Source: Prevotella sp.
GTDB lineage: Bacteria; Bacteroidota; Bacteroidia; Bacteroidales; Bacteroidaceae
Direction: 5' to 3'
NCBI GenBank assembly: GCA_022774105.1
Contig: JALFNY010000061.1
Coordinates: 1 to 39,705 of the forward strand
Length of the DNA: 39,705 nt
The first letter of the stretch is position 1. Each line of letters opens with the position of its first letter. The position numbers and the translations under genes are program-made. Positions 4,119 through 39,446 of this stretch are shown one piece after another. The notes under the pieces were generated by a model. The model was not told the origin of the DNA and made no database searches. It saw only the letters and a program-made list of their open reading frames with translations.

Positions 4119-7100
4119 ATGAAAGCAAAACGATTACTAAACCTTGGACTAATGATGGCCTGTGGATTGAGCCTACAAGCACAGACCAACATTTTCCACG
4201 AAAGCTTTGACGCAGCGCAGTCAAAAGCAGAAACAGACGTGGCGTGGTATGAGTTCATCAACATCAAAGATGGTGATGAGCAAAGTATCAACACCACCGA
4301 CGCCTATGCTGGCGAGGGATGTATGAACTTCTTCAACGCCAACGTTGAAGGAAACTGGTGGGATCGCGCCATCAAGTTCCGCAACCTCCCATTGCAGGAA
4401 GGCAAGAGTTACCGCCTTACCTACCGCTTCAAGGGCCAGAACGAATGGGCCATTGACAGTGAAACAAAGAACAAGGGCAAGATGAGCGTTGCCCTCATGC
4501 AGGGTGGTGAGGATGCAGACATACCACTACTCGACGCTAATGGCAACGAGTTCAGGTATGAAGTATCTTACTTTAACCCTGAGAAGTATGAGAAGTACAC
4601 AAAGATGTTCTACTTCGCAAGCGCACAGTTACAGAAGGATACCTACGCTGAGAAGAACCCAGACAAGGCCCCTCTGGAAGACAAATGGTTCGCTACATTC
4701 AACATCTACAACCCTGGCGACTACTATCTCGACGAGGTTGACCTGTCAGAAAGCCCCATCGCAGGTGTTTACTTCAGTGAAGACGTAATACGTGTGGACT
4801 TCGGTTACGCAACAAACGTAACAGACCTGGCAAAGGCTAACCCACTCGGTCGCGTCATCATGCCAAATGACTGTGCATCAGTAACACTCAACGGTGCCGC
4901 TGTTGAAGTGGCTGCCGTAGAACTCCAGAGCGATGGTTACATGTACATCTTCCTTGACGATGTAAGATCTGATGATCCAAACGACAAGATAGAGATAGCC
5001 TTCAAGAACCCAGAGGACGAAGCATATCAGGTTAAGTACAAAGGTACACTTGCGCCAGAAGGTGCAGTTCCTTCATTCGGCGAAGAAGCAGGAGAATACC
5101 TCGAGGGTCTGGAAGAAGTAATGTCATGGGCATATACAGAGCCAACAAAGGTATCTACCGTTCCTGTTGACGGTTCATTCGCCCTTGATGAGACAATGAC
5201 AGAGGTTTCATTCACATTCGACAAGCCTGTAATGGGACATGACGACAACGGTAAACCACTTGTTGCTAAGTTAAACGGTGTAGAGGATCTCGTGCTCAAA
5301 ACACAACTGGCTGATGACGAAAGCACAACAACACTTACCTTCGGTCGTAAAGACAACAAGCCTTTCACTAAGGGAGGATACTCTATAACCCTATCAGGCG
5401 TTACCTCTGATAAGAATATTAAGTCTTTCGAAACCTTTACACTTGACTTTGAAACAGGTAAGATACAACTTGCAGAAACAGTATATACAGACATCACCAC
5501 ACACCTCTTGCAGGGTGAAAACGGCAAAATACCAGTAGGCTGGACCTGTATGGTCAAGGGTGAAGCTGGTAACTGGACAAGTGGTGTAGTATGGGAAGGC
5601 GGCTCTGCTTGCCGTAACATTAACGTTACGGGTGAAGATGGCAACGAATACGTTGCATTCTACATCTGCGACCGTGACGGATACACATACCTCAAGTATG
5701 GTGACAAAGAAGACGCACGTCTCACACTCCCTGCTGGCGACATAGAGTTCAGTATCATGGGTCTTGGACACGATGCTGATGTTCGCACACTCGAATTCCG
5801 CCTTGAAGACATGGACGGCAACGAGGTAGTCCACGGCTCTGGTTCAACAAGCGTTAATGCAAATAACTTTACAACCGTTGAAGCAGCAGGAAACATCAGC
5901 GTAAAGTTCAACAATCCTAAGGAGCAGAACTTTATTCTGAAGATACATAATTCATCTGGTGGCTGGGATGGAGCACGTGTACTTGGCTTCAAAGCAAGAA
6001 GTTACACCATGACCGAGGGTGAATCAACCGAGGCTTCGGTAGTATTTGCCGATGAAAATTACGGCGGTGCCAACAAGGTTACAACAGCAGACAACGCTGC
6101 ACCGGCAGTAGGTTCTGGCTGGGCACTCTATCAGAAAACAGAAACAGGTAACATAAAGAAAGTGCCAGGACAGGACTACAACTACAACGGTACTCGTATC
6201 TTCAAACTTGGCATCAAGAACCTCACCACCGGTTACTACACCAACGGCAACTGGCCTGAAACATACGCTATCTATGGTAGCGGAGAATCTGAGAGCGTTG
6301 ATAACGAGCCTGTTCTCCATATCCCATCTGGCCGTCACCAGATTACATACTATGCTTCTAACTGGAAGGAAAATAGTGCTAACGCAGGCAGAGACCACAT
6401 TGTTTACTTCGAACTTGGCAACAAGGAAGACGGAACAGTATTCTATAGCCGTGAAGACAAGATTGAGAACTGTGACATGAACGGCGACCGCAACGCAAAA
6501 GTTGAAGCCAAAATGATACAGTTCACCATCAGCATACCAACTGACGGCGACTACACCATCAAGGTAGGTGGCACCACAGAGCAATTCATCGGTAACTTCA
6601 AGATTGAGAAACTCGGTTCACAGACAGCATACTATAACGGTCTTGTCAACGCTGCAAGGAAACTTGCTATCGAGGAACTCGAAGCCAGCGCAGACGAGAA
6701 GTTCAACGGTACTACAAAGACCGCTTTGCAGGCAGCCGTTGACAAGTATGCAGACCTCTCTAACATGCACACTCCTGCTGAGGCAACAGCAGCCAAGGCA
6801 GAACTCGAGTCACTGACAAAGGATATGGCAACACGCCGTGAGTACGTTGACCGTTACGGCAAAGCCCTTGACGCAGCGGCTGCAATCATAGCAGAGGTAG
6901 GCGAGAAAGAGGCTACAGACGAGGACCCAGGACATCCTGCTACAAAGTATGTTAATCTTGAAGCCTTCCAAGCCCTCGAAGCAGTATATAACGCTAACAG
7001 CGCAAAGACTGCTCAGGAACAGGAGGATAAGGAACTCATCGCTGCCACTCAGGACCTTGAGAACAACACCACATGGCTCACCAACATGAGAGACAAATGC

Positions 7101-8153
7101 GTAACATTGCTGACAGAGCAGATTGTTGACGCTGCTGCCGCCCTTGTCAAGCTTGACGCCAACACCTCTAACGATGAGTATGTAATAGCAGCCGGCAACG
7201 CCCTCACCGATGATCAGGAGATAGCCAAGGCCCTCCAACTCCGTGTGACAAAGGCTATTTACGACAAACTCGCTAACGGTAACAATCCATTCATAGTACT
7301 TGATCCAGAAACTAAATTTGAAGACGTTGACTCAATAGACCTCAGCAGTTTCATACAGAACCGCAACATCTACAGCACAGAGACAGACCTCAACAGGAAT
7401 CTCACCAGCATCGACAATCTCCCAGGCTGGAGCCTTGACATACTGTCAGGCACCCCAGCTGTTGAATGGAGTTGGGTTGCGTTCAACGCTAACAAGTATA
7501 ACCCAGTAACCAACCAGTACCTCATCTGTGGCTGGCACACTGAGTTTGACCTATATCAGACCATCAAGAACCTCCCTGTTGGTAAATACACCTACGTAGC
7601 AGGAACACAGGACCGTGGATTCTCTGACGTAACTGACAATAAGAAGGCATATATGGCCGAGAACCAGTCATGGCACGTAACAGGTACTGACGGCACTAAC
7701 GAGATTGAAGGTGACATCCTCTCTTACATCTGGTGGCAGGTAGGCGATACAAAAGACATCGCAGGCTTCAATATCGAGAAGCAGGGCCAGTGGTACGGAC
7801 TGACAGAGTGTGTATCAAAGCAGTTCGCCGTTCCAGCAGTTGGTGAAGGCATGACAGGTGAGATGACCATCGGTGCTCATCCAAAAGAGTTCGAGGGACT
7901 TGCTTCTGTTGACAACTTCCGCATCTACATGGTAGGCAAGGACGACACATTCGACTACGCCGCCGCTGCAAATGCAATAGCAAAAGAGATTGAAACAGCA
8001 GTTGATGAGGTATCAGCACCAGAGGGTGAGCCTGTAAACGTAAGTTTCTACGACCTCACAGGTAAGCAGGTAAGCACACCAAGCGGCATCACCATCAAGG
8101 TTGATACATACAAGAACGGATATATTAAGGTATCAAAGATATTGGTTCCATAA
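4119..8153 (+). CDS. Large modular secreted protein of unknown function (jelly-roll/Ig-like modules, helical FIVAR-like region, C-terminal sorting-like tail)
   Basis: 1344-aa ORF with signal peptide MKAKRLLNLGLMMACGLSLQAQ. Contains an Ig-like stretch (PVDGSFALDETMTEVSFTFDKPV), an alanine/glutamate-rich helical region (YYNGLVNAARKLAIEELEASADEKFNGTTKTALQAAVDKYADL) and the C-terminus VNVSFYDLTGKQVSTPSGITIKVDTYKNGYIKVSKILVP. Confidence 0.85.
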   Translation: MKAKRLLNLGLMMACGLSLQAQTNIFHESFDAAQSKAETDVAWYEFINIKDGDEQSINTTDAYAGEGCMNFFNANVEGNWWDRAIKFRNLPLQEGKSYRLTYRFKGQNEWAIDSETKNKGKMSVALMQGGEDADIPLLDANGNEFRYEVSYFNPEKYEKYTKMFYFASAQLQKDTYAEKNPDKAPLEDKWFATFNIYNPGDYYLDEVDLSESPIAGVYFSEDVIRVDFGYATNVTDLAKANPLGRVIMPNDCASVTLNGAAVEVAAVELQSDGYMYIFLDDVRSDDPNDKIEIAFKNPEDEAYQVKYKGTLAPEGAVPSFGEEAGEYLEGLEEVMSWAYTEPTKVSTVPVDGSFALDETMTEVSFTFDKPVMGHDDNGKPLVAKLNGVEDLVLKTQLADDESTTTLTFGRKDNKPFTKGGYSITLSGVTSDKNIKSFETFTLDFETGKIQLAETVYTDITTHLLQGENGKIPVGWTCMVKGEAGNWTSGVVWEGGSACRNINVTGEDGNEYVAFYICDRDGYTYLKYGDKEDARLTLPAGDIEFSIMGLGHDADVRTLEFRLEDMDGNEVVHGSGSTSVNANNFTTVEAAGNISVKFNNPKEQNFILKIHNSSGGWDGARVLGFKARSYTMTEGESTEASVVFADENYGGANKVTTADNAAPAVGSGWALYQKTETGNIKKVPGQDYNYNGTRIFKLGIKNLTTGYYTNGNWPETYAIYGSGESESVDNEPVLHIPSGRHQITYYASNWKENSANAGRDHIVYFELGNKEDGTVFYSREDKIENCDMNGDRNAKVEAKMIQFTISIPTDGDYTIKVGGTTEQFIGNFKIEKLGSQTAYYNGLVNAARKLAIEELEASADEKFNGTTKTALQAAVDKYADLSNMHTPAEATAAKAELESLTKDMATRREYVDRYGKALDAAAAIIAEVGEKEATDEDPGHPATKYVNLEAFQALEAVYNANSAKTAQEQEDKELIAATQDLENNTTWLTNMRDKCVTLLTEQIVDAAAALVKLDANTSNDEYVIAAGNALTDDQEIAKALQLRVTKAIYDKLANGNNPFIVLDPETKFEDVDSIDLSSFIQNRNIYSTETDLNRNLTSIDNLPGWSLDILSGTPAVEWSWVAFNANKYNPVTNQYLICGWHTEFDLYQTIKNLPVGKYTYVAGTQDRGFSDVTDNKKAYMAENQSWHVTGTDGTNEIEGDILSYIWWQVGDTKDIAGFNIEKQGQWYGLTECVSKQFAVPAVGEGMTGEMTIGAHPKEFEGLASVDNFRIYMVGKDDTFDYAAAANAIAKEIETAVDEVSAPEGEPVNVSFYDLTGKQVSTPSGITIKVDTYKNGYIKVSKILVP

Positions 8154-8177
8154 GCCATCTGTTTTTTTAGAAGATTG

Positions 8178-8208
8178 ATAGGGCGCTCCTTTTGGGGCGC
8201 CCTATTTT
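8178..8208 (+). terminator. Rho-independent-type terminator
   Basis: ATAGGGCGCtCC-TTTT-GGgGCGCCCTAT followed by TTTTG, just after stop 8153. Confidence 0.8.
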
Positions 8209-8280: not shown

Positions 8281-8682
8281 TAGGCGGAATGTGGCGCTGA
8301 CGCACCACACACAAGGGCAGCGAGGCTTGTGTGTAGTTTGGCTGCTCAGTAAGTTCTTAGGTCATAATCTGCCGCTAATTACACTACAATCAGGTGCTGA
8401 TTACAGTACGAACAGGTGCTAATTACAATGCAATCAGGTGCTGATTACAATGCCGTTAGGTGCTGATTACAATGCAGTTAGGTGCTGATTACAATGCAGT
8501 TATGTGCTAATTGCAATGCAGTTATGTGCTGATATCCTCACAACCAATAACTAAACCACTAACAACCAGCCCCCATTAACCAAACAACCAAACTACTAAA
8601 CAACCAAACGACTAAACAACTAAAACGACCAAGCATTCCCCGCGGCCCTTGTGTGTGGTGCGTCAGCGCCACATACCGCCTT
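8281..8682. repeat. Element bounded by a 42-bp inverted repeat (39/42 identical, 30 bp perfect core) enclosing the 22-bp array
   Basis: Left arm 8281-8322 taggcggaATGTGGCGCTGACGCACCACACACAAGGGCagcg; reverse complement of 8641-8682 is aaggcggtATGTGGCGCTGACGCACCACACACAAGGGCcgcg. Confidence 0.88.
8375..8537. repeat. 22-bp tandem palindromic repeat array A1 (7 full units plus a partial)
   Basis: Units start at 8375, 8397, 8419, 8441, 8463, 8485, 8507 and 8529; consensus CTGATTACAATGCAGTTAGGTG. Confidence 0.95.
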
Positions 8683-8913: not shown

Positions 8914-11064
8914 TTAATCTATCACCACCTTCTTTCCGCTGATGATATATACCCCCTTGCTGAGAGCGTCAATCTGCGCCTCAGAAGCGTTGCTTATCAG
9001 CAACTGTCCGCTTACGGAATATACGTTCTTCGTTGCCTTTGCGCCTGCCGTGGCCTGCACTCCCTTTGCTGAGGTGGCATCGGTCATGGCCACTTCCATC
9101 ATAAAACAAGGCTGTATGCCGGTGTTTGTGAAGGTGAACTGCGAGAGATTGGGCAGTGAGAAGGTTATGACGTCAGGATTTGCGGCATCCTTTGCTGACT
9201 GCATCAGCGTTGCGGTAGCGTCATCGTAGGTCACTCCTGCCACCTCACGCCAGTAACATGGTTTTGAGTTAGAGTCGCCATTGACGTATGAGATGAATGT
9301 GACAGCCGTTGCCACCTTACCCTCTGGGCAGCAGAAGGTGTTTGTTGCGCCGTTTGATGTCTTTATAGACTTGCCGTGGGTGGTGCTGCCGTTGTACGTT
9401 ATCGCCGTGGCGGGGTCAAGTGTTCTATCGGGCTTGCTGGTGATGGTAAGCGTTGCTCCATCGTCCCATCGCTGCGTATTAGCCTTTGTAGCACCGTCAG
9501 GGTGAGCGTAAATCACCTTTGTCACCTCCGTTTCGCCGTTCTGATAGTCAGGGTAATACTCCTCAAACGCTCCGTCAACAGTTGTTATGCCACCGGCGTT
9601 CTGTGCCTTTACAAGGTCTTCAACGAGTGAGTTGCAGTACACTTCGAGGTTTGTGTAATAGTGGTGTGAATCCAGATTATACTTGTTTCTGTCAGCGGCA
9701 TCGTTGGGGTCAAGGCCATATTTCTTCTCCCATTCGTCCGGCATACCGTCTCCGTCGGTGTCAAGCGGTGCCTCGGTGCTTTGCAGTTCCGGCCAACCGC
9801 CAGCCTCATCCTGTGAGTTTATGAATCCCGTAGTGGTGCGGGGAGCGCAGTGTGAGGCCACACCGTTGCGTGCATCACTGGCGATGTAGGCATCATGAGC
9901 ATCACGTTTGTATGACGCACCAGCATAATCCAGCACCTTTTCGTATGCGTCAGCGGCCGTATGCGTGGTTATGTAGCCGTAAGTTATTGGCTCTTCTATC
10001 CTTATCGTGTCCTTAGTAGCCTGCGTATAGGTGCCATCGTTGCCGCTGGCGTCAATCTGGTTGTATATGCCGTAGGTCCAGTTATCGTTGGTAACAGTGG
10101 CGTGTCTGGGGTTCACGTTACCCGTAACATAGTATTTTCCCCACACGTGCCACATCACATCCCATCCGTTGGGGTTGTCGGTGCCATGGTGAGTGTATTC
10201 CGTTGTGCGTATTCCCGGTGCTGCAATGCGCTGCTGTATGGTGGCGCTGCGTGTGAGAGTGCCTGGTCCCGGCTTGTAATAGTTATTTACTATGTTGACA
10301 TTCATGCCTTCAGCGCCGTAGCATCCGTTGCCACCCCAGTTGTAGATGACGTTGTTACGCATATCCATTCGCTCGTCAGTCTGTGTTGACTGACGTGGCC
10401 CTAAGCGAGGGGTACGGCTTGTGTGGTGCGCCATGAGGTTGTGATGATATGACGCTCCGGAGCCTCCCCAGTTGCCACCGTAGCCATGTGCACCCTTGGC
10501 GTGCCCCGCGTTGACAAGGCTTTGGTCAACGATGTTCCACTGAACAGAGATGTTTCGTGAGCCATATACGGACAGACACTCGTCTATTGACCAACTGACA
10601 GAACAGTGGTCAATAATGATATTTGCCTGGTCCATGCCCCCCAGACCGTCTCCCTCGTGGTATGCCACCTGCCTGTTGCCCAGCCTGAAGCGCACAAAGC
10701 GTATTATAACGTTGCTGGAATTGATGGTAAAGGGATAGTCAGCGATGCAGATGCCGTCGCCAGGAGCGGTCTGTCCCAGTATGGACACGTCGCCATTCCT
10801 CAGCGATAACGCTGATTTCAGGTAGATAGTACCTGACACATCAAAGACGATGGTGCGCTTACCACCCTTCTCACAGGCCCAACGGAAGGTGCCGACAGAG
10901 CCGTCGTCAGCAAGGGAAGTAACGTGATAGACCGCTCCACCGCGTCCACCAGTGGTGTAACGGCCAAAGCCTTCCGCTCCAGGGAATGCGGGTGCATAGT
11001 CAAACTGAGCCGTTGCAAACAGCGAAACAGCCGTTGCCAACAGCGTGAAGAGTAACTTTTTCAT
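8914..11064 (-). CDS. Pectate lyase-like protein (PL1-type right-handed beta-helix) with C-terminal sorting-like domain
   Basis: 716 aa; FDYAPAFPGAEGFGRYTTGGRGGAVYHVTSLADDG...ILGQTAPGDGICIADYPFTI...IIIDHCSVSWSIDE is typical of Bacteroidota pectate lyases. Also has DTDGDGMPDEWEKKYGLDPND and a C-terminal VYSVSGQLL...KGVYIISGKKVVID tail. Confidence 0.88.
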   Translation of the reverse strand: MKKLLFTLLATAVSLFATAQFDYAPAFPGAEGFGRYTTGGRGGAVYHVTSLADDGSVGTFRWACEKGGKRTIVFDVSGTIYLKSALSLRNGDVSILGQTAPGDGICIADYPFTINSSNVIIRFVRFRLGNRQVAYHEGDGLGGMDQANIIIDHCSVSWSIDECLSVYGSRNISVQWNIVDQSLVNAGHAKGAHGYGGNWGGSGASYHHNLMAHHTSRTPRLGPRQSTQTDERMDMRNNVIYNWGGNGCYGAEGMNVNIVNNYYKPGPGTLTRSATIQQRIAAPGIRTTEYTHHGTDNPNGWDVMWHVWGKYYVTGNVNPRHATVTNDNWTYGIYNQIDASGNDGTYTQATKDTIRIEEPITYGYITTHTAADAYEKVLDYAGASYKRDAHDAYIASDARNGVASHCAPRTTTGFINSQDEAGGWPELQSTEAPLDTDGDGMPDEWEKKYGLDPNDAADRNKYNLDSHHYYTNLEVYCNSLVEDLVKAQNAGGITTVDGAFEEYYPDYQNGETEVTKVIYAHPDGATKANTQRWDDGATLTITSKPDRTLDPATAITYNGSTTHGKSIKTSNGATNTFCCPEGKVATAVTFISYVNGDSNSKPCYWREVAGVTYDDATATLMQSAKDAANPDVITFSLPNLSQFTFTNTGIQPCFMMEVAMTDATSAKGVQATAGAKATKNVYSVSGQLLISNASEAQIDALSKGVYIISGKKVVID

Positions 11065-11186: not shown

Positions 11187-11194
11187 TACCTTTG
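11187..11194 (+). promoter_or_regulatory. -7 promoter element (TACCTTTG) for the amidohydrolase gene
   Basis: TAnnTTTG match 46 bp upstream of the probable start 11240. Confidence 0.5.
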
Positions 11195-14943: not shown

Positions 14944-15023
14944 GGTTTTAAGGTGGGAGATGGAAGATTAGAAGGTTGTTGGTTGCGGGTTAGGAGGTGT
15001 TGACTTGTAAGTTATAACGTTAT

Positions 15024-15111
15024 CAGCACCTAATCACAACGCTATCAGCACTTAATCACAACGCAATCGGCACCTAATCACATCGCTATCAGCACCTAAT
15101 CACCGTGTTAC
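15024..15111. repeat. 22-bp tandem palindromic repeat array A2 (4 units, opposite orientation to A1)
   Basis: Units at 15024, 15046, 15068 and 15090: cagcacctaatcacaacgctat / cagcacttaatcacaacgcaat / cggcacctaatcacatcgctat / cagcacctaatcaccgtgttac. Confidence 0.92.
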
Positions 15112-17521: not shown

Positions 17522-17552
17522 CTTATATACATCGCCTGCATTATGTTGTAAT

Positions 17553-17596
17553 CAGTACCTGATTATCTTGTAATCAGGGCCTCTTTACACTGCCGT
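17553..17596. repeat. 22-bp repeat array A3 (2 units)
   Basis: cagtacctgattatcttgtaat (17553-17574), cagggcctctttacactgccgt (17575-17596), preceded by a partial ttgtaat arm. Confidence 0.75.
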
Positions 17597-21808: not shown

Positions 21809-21944
21809 CATACAAACGTCATTTTTTTCGTTTTTTCGCTCCAAAAGCATGACTTTCACAACAGGAAGCGGTGGGGAACGTGTTTCTGTGTGCGTGGTGA
21901 CAGTCGTGCGACTTCATGTCATCAAAGGGTTATCCGACAGTAAT

Positions 21945-22032
21945 CAGTACCTTTTCATTCTGTAATCAGCACCTTTTCACATTGTAATCTGCACCTTTTC
22001 ACACTGTAATCAGGTGCTGATTACTGGTGTCC
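21945..22032. repeat. 22-bp tandem palindromic repeat array A4 (4 units)
   Basis: Units at 21945, 21967, 21989 and 22011; the last junction forms the perfect dyad GTAATCAG-GTG-CTGATTAC. Confidence 0.92.
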
Positions 22033-32517: not shown

Positions 32518-32605
32518 CCACCTACAACGCAATCAGGTGCAAATCACACAGCAAAGAGGTGCCGATAACACAACAATCAAGCACTGATTACACAACAAAA
32601 AGGTG
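32518..32605. repeat. 22-bp repeat array A5 (4 degenerate units)
   Basis: Unit starts 32518, 32540, 32562 and 32584; ccacctacaacgcaatcaggtg / caaatcacacagcaaagaggtg / ccgataacacaacaatcaagca / ctgattacacaacaaaaaggtg, followed by ctgatcac. Confidence 0.85.
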
Positions 32606-32701
32606 CTGATCACAAATCGCCCGCATCCCCCTACCCTCGCAAAAGAAAAGAGACAAGGTCACGACCCAACCACCAAACCACAAAAAAACAAACATACCAT
32701 T

Positions 32702-39316: not shown

Positions 39317-39358
39317 ACTGCAAATATACACTAATACAACACCACGTAAAAACACAAT

Positions 39359-39446
39359 CAGCACCTGATTACATCACAATAAACACCTGATTACAACACA
39401 ATTAGCACCTGATTACAACATAATCAGCACCTGATTCCATAACCAA
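39359..39446. repeat. 22-bp tandem palindromic repeat array A6 (4 units)
   Basis: Units at 39359, 39381, 39403 and 39425: cagcacctgattacatcacaat / aaacacctgattacaacacaat / tagcacctgattacaacataat / cagcacctgattccataaccaa. Confidence 0.92.

Follow-up and report, generated by a model that had tools for sequence, protein, structure and literature searches.

A dispersed, probably REP-like hairpin repeat forms an inverted pair around a probably independent 22-bp array in a Prevotella genome

The gap between two convergent open reading frames (ORFs) of a Prevotella sp. metagenome-assembled genome (MAG) contains a tandem array of a 22-bp unit bracketed by a long inverted repeat, raising the question of whether arms and array together constitute a mobile element. 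A sequence-only reading of the window, the whole 39,705-nucleotide stretch of DNA analyzed here, had proposed a MITE-like unit by which the array might be mobilized. We consider it about two-thirds probable instead that the arms are copies of a dispersed, ~45–50-bp REP-like hairpin repeat, that their pairing arose by local inverted duplication, and that the array is independent of them. A repeat finder placed the arms at 8282–8325 and 8638–8681, each 44 nt long and 93% complementary to the other, with a 312-nt spacer and a 30-bp perfect core; the 42-nt limits proposed earlier (8281–8322 and 8641–8682) are ~3 nt off at the inner edge. The convergent setting was borne out, the flanking ORFs lying at 4119–8153 (plus strand) and 8914–11064 (minus strand), and the array, previously counted as seven units, comprises 7.3 copies of the 22-bp unit. 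Reinspection, like the earlier reading, revealed no target-site duplication, and the outer flanks of the arms are unlike. The features of the segment are as follows.

8177..8206, plus strand: terminator-like hairpin of the upstream gene, preceding the left arm
8282..8325, minus strand: left arm, a copy of the dispersed hairpin repeat (63.2 bits, model R1); the folding strand, CCNCGCNGCCC...CCACAT, is the minus strand
8326..8337, no strand assigned: CTTGTGTGTAGT, a partial inverted arm copy that pairs with 8304–8315 at 92% (repeat-finder pair)
8374..8533, plus strand: 22-bp tandem array of 7.3 units, belonging to a distinct repeat family that mostly occurs without arms
8578..8632, no strand assigned: (AACCAAAC)n tract between the arms; the sister genome has similar tracts flanking the arm repeat
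8638..8681, plus strand: right arm, an inverted copy of the same repeat (71 bits, model R1); the folding strand is the plus strand

The 30-bp core is the longest perfect inverted repeat in the 39.7-kb window, whereas 20 dinucleotide-preserving shuffles of the window reached 13–17 bp, and a match of this length is thus far beyond shuffle expectation. Folded as single-strand DNA, the 8281–8682 segment gave a z-score of −7.9. With 3 mismatches in 44 positions between the arms and dissimilar flanks, an assembly fold-back artefact is an unlikely source of the inverted repeat. Beyond the locus, positions 11192–39251 of the window form a polysaccharide-utilisation-like region encoding an amidohydrolase, a phosphate transporter, a GH43 protein, a hybrid two-component regulator with an AraC-type domain, a TonB plug, SusD proteins, and fasciclin domains.

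Copies of the arm were sought in the host MAG (G000, 84% complete) and in a sister Prevotellaceae MAG of the same genus (G021, 50% complete), the counts being based on searches and on retrieved contig stretches. A 70-nt query together with pattern searches identified seven further copies in G000, two on contig C10, three on C66, and one each on C115 and C204, the last with three mismatches in the pattern search; G021 contains four copies, three clear and one diverged. The arms therefore recur elsewhere in the genome rather than being a fixed structure present once. A covariance model found nine full copies in G000, including the two in the window, at 53–78 bits, and one partial copy at 18.8 bits. 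The best score in 29 other genomes, a sample that excludes G021, was 20.6 bits, and matches of 14–21 bits in other genomes were taken as chance. When a degenerate 28-mer was searched against the GTDB collection, the sole other species matched was that of the uncultured Prevotellaceae MAG containing contig CALYTD010000002, which corresponds, by the position of the match, to a contig of G021. No match was detected in viral contigs, plasmids, or phages, and an origin of the arms from any of these was rejected. Within these searches, the arm repeat is limited to the Prevotella-like host species and one sister species. A short repeat resembling CTTTGCAAGCAAAGCGGCAGAGCCGAGC adjoins the arm copies at G000:C66 (~370–395), G000:C115 (~6740–6765), and G000:C204, where it is degenerate; it is absent in the window.

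One strand of the arm repeat is predicted to fold. The folding strand, 5′-CCCCGCGGCCCTTGTGTGTGGTGCGTCAGCGCCACATTC, would form a 9-bp stem with a 4-nt loop; the CCCCGCGG strand has a folding z-score of about −2 (−3.5 for the C204 copy), and the opposite strand, at −0.3, folds no better than shuffles. Across 13 copies, 98.3% of stem cells are paired. Five stem pairs change on one side with pairing kept, and another, in the C204 copy, is altered on both sides, so that most stem changes preserve pairing through GU pairs or compensatory change. The loop varies (GTCA, ATCA, CTCA, CTCT, ATAC, and GCCA). With few copies and one double compensatory change, covariation lends the putative hairpin modest support, because 30 of 500 shuffles match the observed measures. 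No Rfam match at the gathering threshold was obtained within 98 kb, and assignment to a known RNA family was rejected, the sub-threshold matches near the locus being weak and chance-like.

The copies lie in convergent gaps (the window, C66c, G21C2b, and G21C8), in same-strand gaps (C10a, C10b, C204, G21C244, and C115), or beside a gene 3′ end close to a contig end (C66a/b and G21C2a); none of the copies examined lies in a gap between divergent genes. The neighbors of copies other than the window pair are housekeeping genes or others that do not encode transposases. The sense strand is the one that folds in four of the five same-strand gaps, a bias that is not significant. In the genus sample, no close relative in synteny was found for either protein flanking the window locus, and because a close orthologous gene pair was lacking, the loci of other copies were used for empty-site comparison. 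The nqr operon holds two copies, one between nqrA and nqrB and one between nqrE and nqrF, positions at which most other genomes are nearly gapless. With the repeat, the nqrA-nqrB spacing in G000 is 126 bp, compared with anything from an overlap to ~45 bp in six genomes without it (G002, G006, G008, G010, G022, and G023); the G021 gap is armless and contains another insert, made of simple repeats. The metF-ychF gap likewise contains the arm in G000 and not in G021, where the site (GATAGAAATGAAAGG) may be a decayed arm copy and not a true empty site. Arms are thus missing at conserved gene pairs in other genomes, as the sequence-only reading had proposed to check. The arm repeat is shown to be dispersed, intergenic, and missing from orthologous gaps of other genomes. 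In G021, the nqrA-nqrB (C188) and metF-ychF (C109) gaps are filled by inverted simple-repeat tracts of the AGGTTTTAGGTTAG or GGTTGTTT types, and in related genomes these gaps are a few bases long or filled differently.

The 22-bp arrays are distributed differently. Adjacent unit pairs of their family number 264 in G000, 156 in G021, and 19 in G001; the remaining genomes of the sample have none. By eye, the unit consists of a 19-bp dyad, GTAATCAG-GTG-CTGATTAC, plus 3 nt. Arrays in the window lie at the following positions:

8374–8533
15016–15103
17535–17577
21940–22013
32535–32614
39351–39436

Arms bracket the one at 8374–8533 and no other. Six of the seven other arm-bearing stretches are without an adjacent pair of 22-bp units (at most three mismatches), the exception being G21C8, which has a pair near the arm; the C204 stretch contains degenerate 22-bp-like units. 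Because several of the larger gaps in the window hold arrays, the observed overlap of arms and array needs no linkage between them. The array between the arms belongs to an independent, far more abundant repeat family, one that is larger and more interesting than the arms. A literature search on 22-bp Prevotella repeats returned no paper meeting all terms.

How the two arms came to face each other can be approached through their sequences. Over 32 nt the right arm is identical to the unrelated copies C66c and G21C2a, and the left arm matches at 31 of 32 positions; since unrelated copies equal the right arm in this way, the near-perfect match between the arms by itself indicates little more than membership in one family. 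Both arms, however, read CCGCCT where the consensus has CTATCA, a change found in none of the 11 other copies, which mostly read CTATCA. About four shared substitutions of this kind suggest a local inverted duplication, which we infer because the changes are private to the two arms; the second arm would have arisen, for example, by template switching at a quasi-palindrome. The left arm is directly followed by the partial inverted arm copy at 8326–8337. Two independent insertions in opposite orientation into one gap, resembling a widely spaced REP dimer, would be a doubtful alternative: the left and right cores (31 of 32) are no closer to each other than the right arm is to unrelated copies (32 of 32), and a direct pair is known at C66, but CCGCCT is common to both arms and to no other copy, and a chance pair within 360 bp is unlikely given about a dozen copies in more than 2 Mb.

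The same private changes could be claimed for a nonautonomous MITE in which the arms are terminal inverted repeats (TIRs) and the 22-bp minisatellite is cargo. The segment is intergenic, has no ORF, and encloses a minisatellite within long inverted arms, and BrickBuilt of Porphyromonas gingivalis shows that such elements exist in the Bacteroidales (PMC4596501). BrickBuilt is likewise intergenic and species-restricted, with a 23-bp minisatellite within inverted ends, TIRs of ~12 nt that resemble IS5-family ends, and TIR-bearing leader and tail segments that never occur without the 23-nt repeat (PMC4596501). Here, in contrast, arms alone and arrays alone both occur, and for that reason the window structure is not a BrickBuilt-type MITE. 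The 11 other arm copies (seven in G000 and four in G021) are solitary or, at C66, form one direct pair 67 bp apart; no inverted pair around an array was found among them, and most arrays are armless, contrary to the earlier suggestion that arms and array act as one unit. With a single composite in hand, no second copy of it, no target-site duplication, and no Y1 (RAYT) transposase (PF01797) found in G000 or G021, both incomplete assemblies in which Y1 was the only family sought genome-wide, the composite MITE was rejected and we regard this explanation as improbable. Because the arms are multicopy and not conserved in place, the idea of an element survives the refuting condition set by the sequence-only reading (arms present once and fixed in position across relatives); its array-mobilizing MITE form is unsupported. 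A broader variant, in which the AACCAAAC tracts, the hairpin arms, and the arrays of the 22-bp dyad unit form one lineage-specific intergenic repeat system that spreads by some unrecognized non-Y1 mechanism, with arms and array acting jointly at some loci, we judge somewhat more improbable again.

Two further explanations assign the arms a function in place. In the Bacteroidales, invertible promoters usually take the form of a short stretch between genes enclosed by an inverted repeat, an arrangement shared by the 30-bp perfect inverted repeat here, and a phase-variable segment flipped by a recombinase between the arms was considered accordingly. Both neighboring genes end toward the segment, so that an inner promoter would drive neither; the sigma-70-like matches lie inside the array, in 22-bp steps. 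The TAnnTTTG motif is absent from 8281–8682, and no recombinase was detected among the window proteins searched. Because the flanking genes converge and the other arm copies are solitary, an inverton is highly unlikely. Equally hard to credit is a hairpin that acts in RNA processing or stability at mRNA 3′ ends, kept by selection and not spreading: pairing on one strand, tolerant of GU pairs and with a variable loop, and a mostly sense orientation downstream of genes would fit, but positions are not conserved at orthologous loci even in the sister species, copies number only about a dozen, and none corresponds to an Rfam family at the gathering threshold.

The preferred reading, a dispersed hairpin repeat duplicated locally in inverted orientation, invites comparison with REP elements, 20–40-bp intergenic palindromes that have GU pairing and are found mostly in convergent or unidirectional gaps on the downstream side of coding regions; the CGTC class, with stems of 8–9 bp and loops of 4–5 nt, has no dedicated transposase and has been reported in Bacteroidetes (PMC3733652). 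The arm repeat is similarly a short, dispersed, intergenic palindrome with a GU-tolerant stem located after genes. Unlike REPs, it is without an unpaired terminal GTAG or CGTC tag, CGTC occurring in the alignments only around the loop, and it carries a conserved GC-rich tail, CCCCGCGGCCC. REP families range from ~20 to thousands of copies per genome, compared with nine full copies in the 84% complete G000 and four in the 50% complete G021, and the inverted pair in the window is 312 bp apart, unlike a tight dimer. A RAYT-driven REP was rejected, PF01797 not having been found in these two incomplete assemblies. By analogy, the arm repeat appears to work like a REP, and it is placed in neither tagged superfamily. 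Such a small palindrome would spread into gaps downstream of genes, and its hairpin would occupy the 3′ part of transcripts. REP-like hairpin repeats can thus be confined to two Prevotella-like species and yet sit inside the nqr operon, and this reading of the local inverted pair avoids listing it as a new transposon. Were movement without a Y1 transposase to be demonstrated, the family would offer a tractable example of untagged REP-like repeats.
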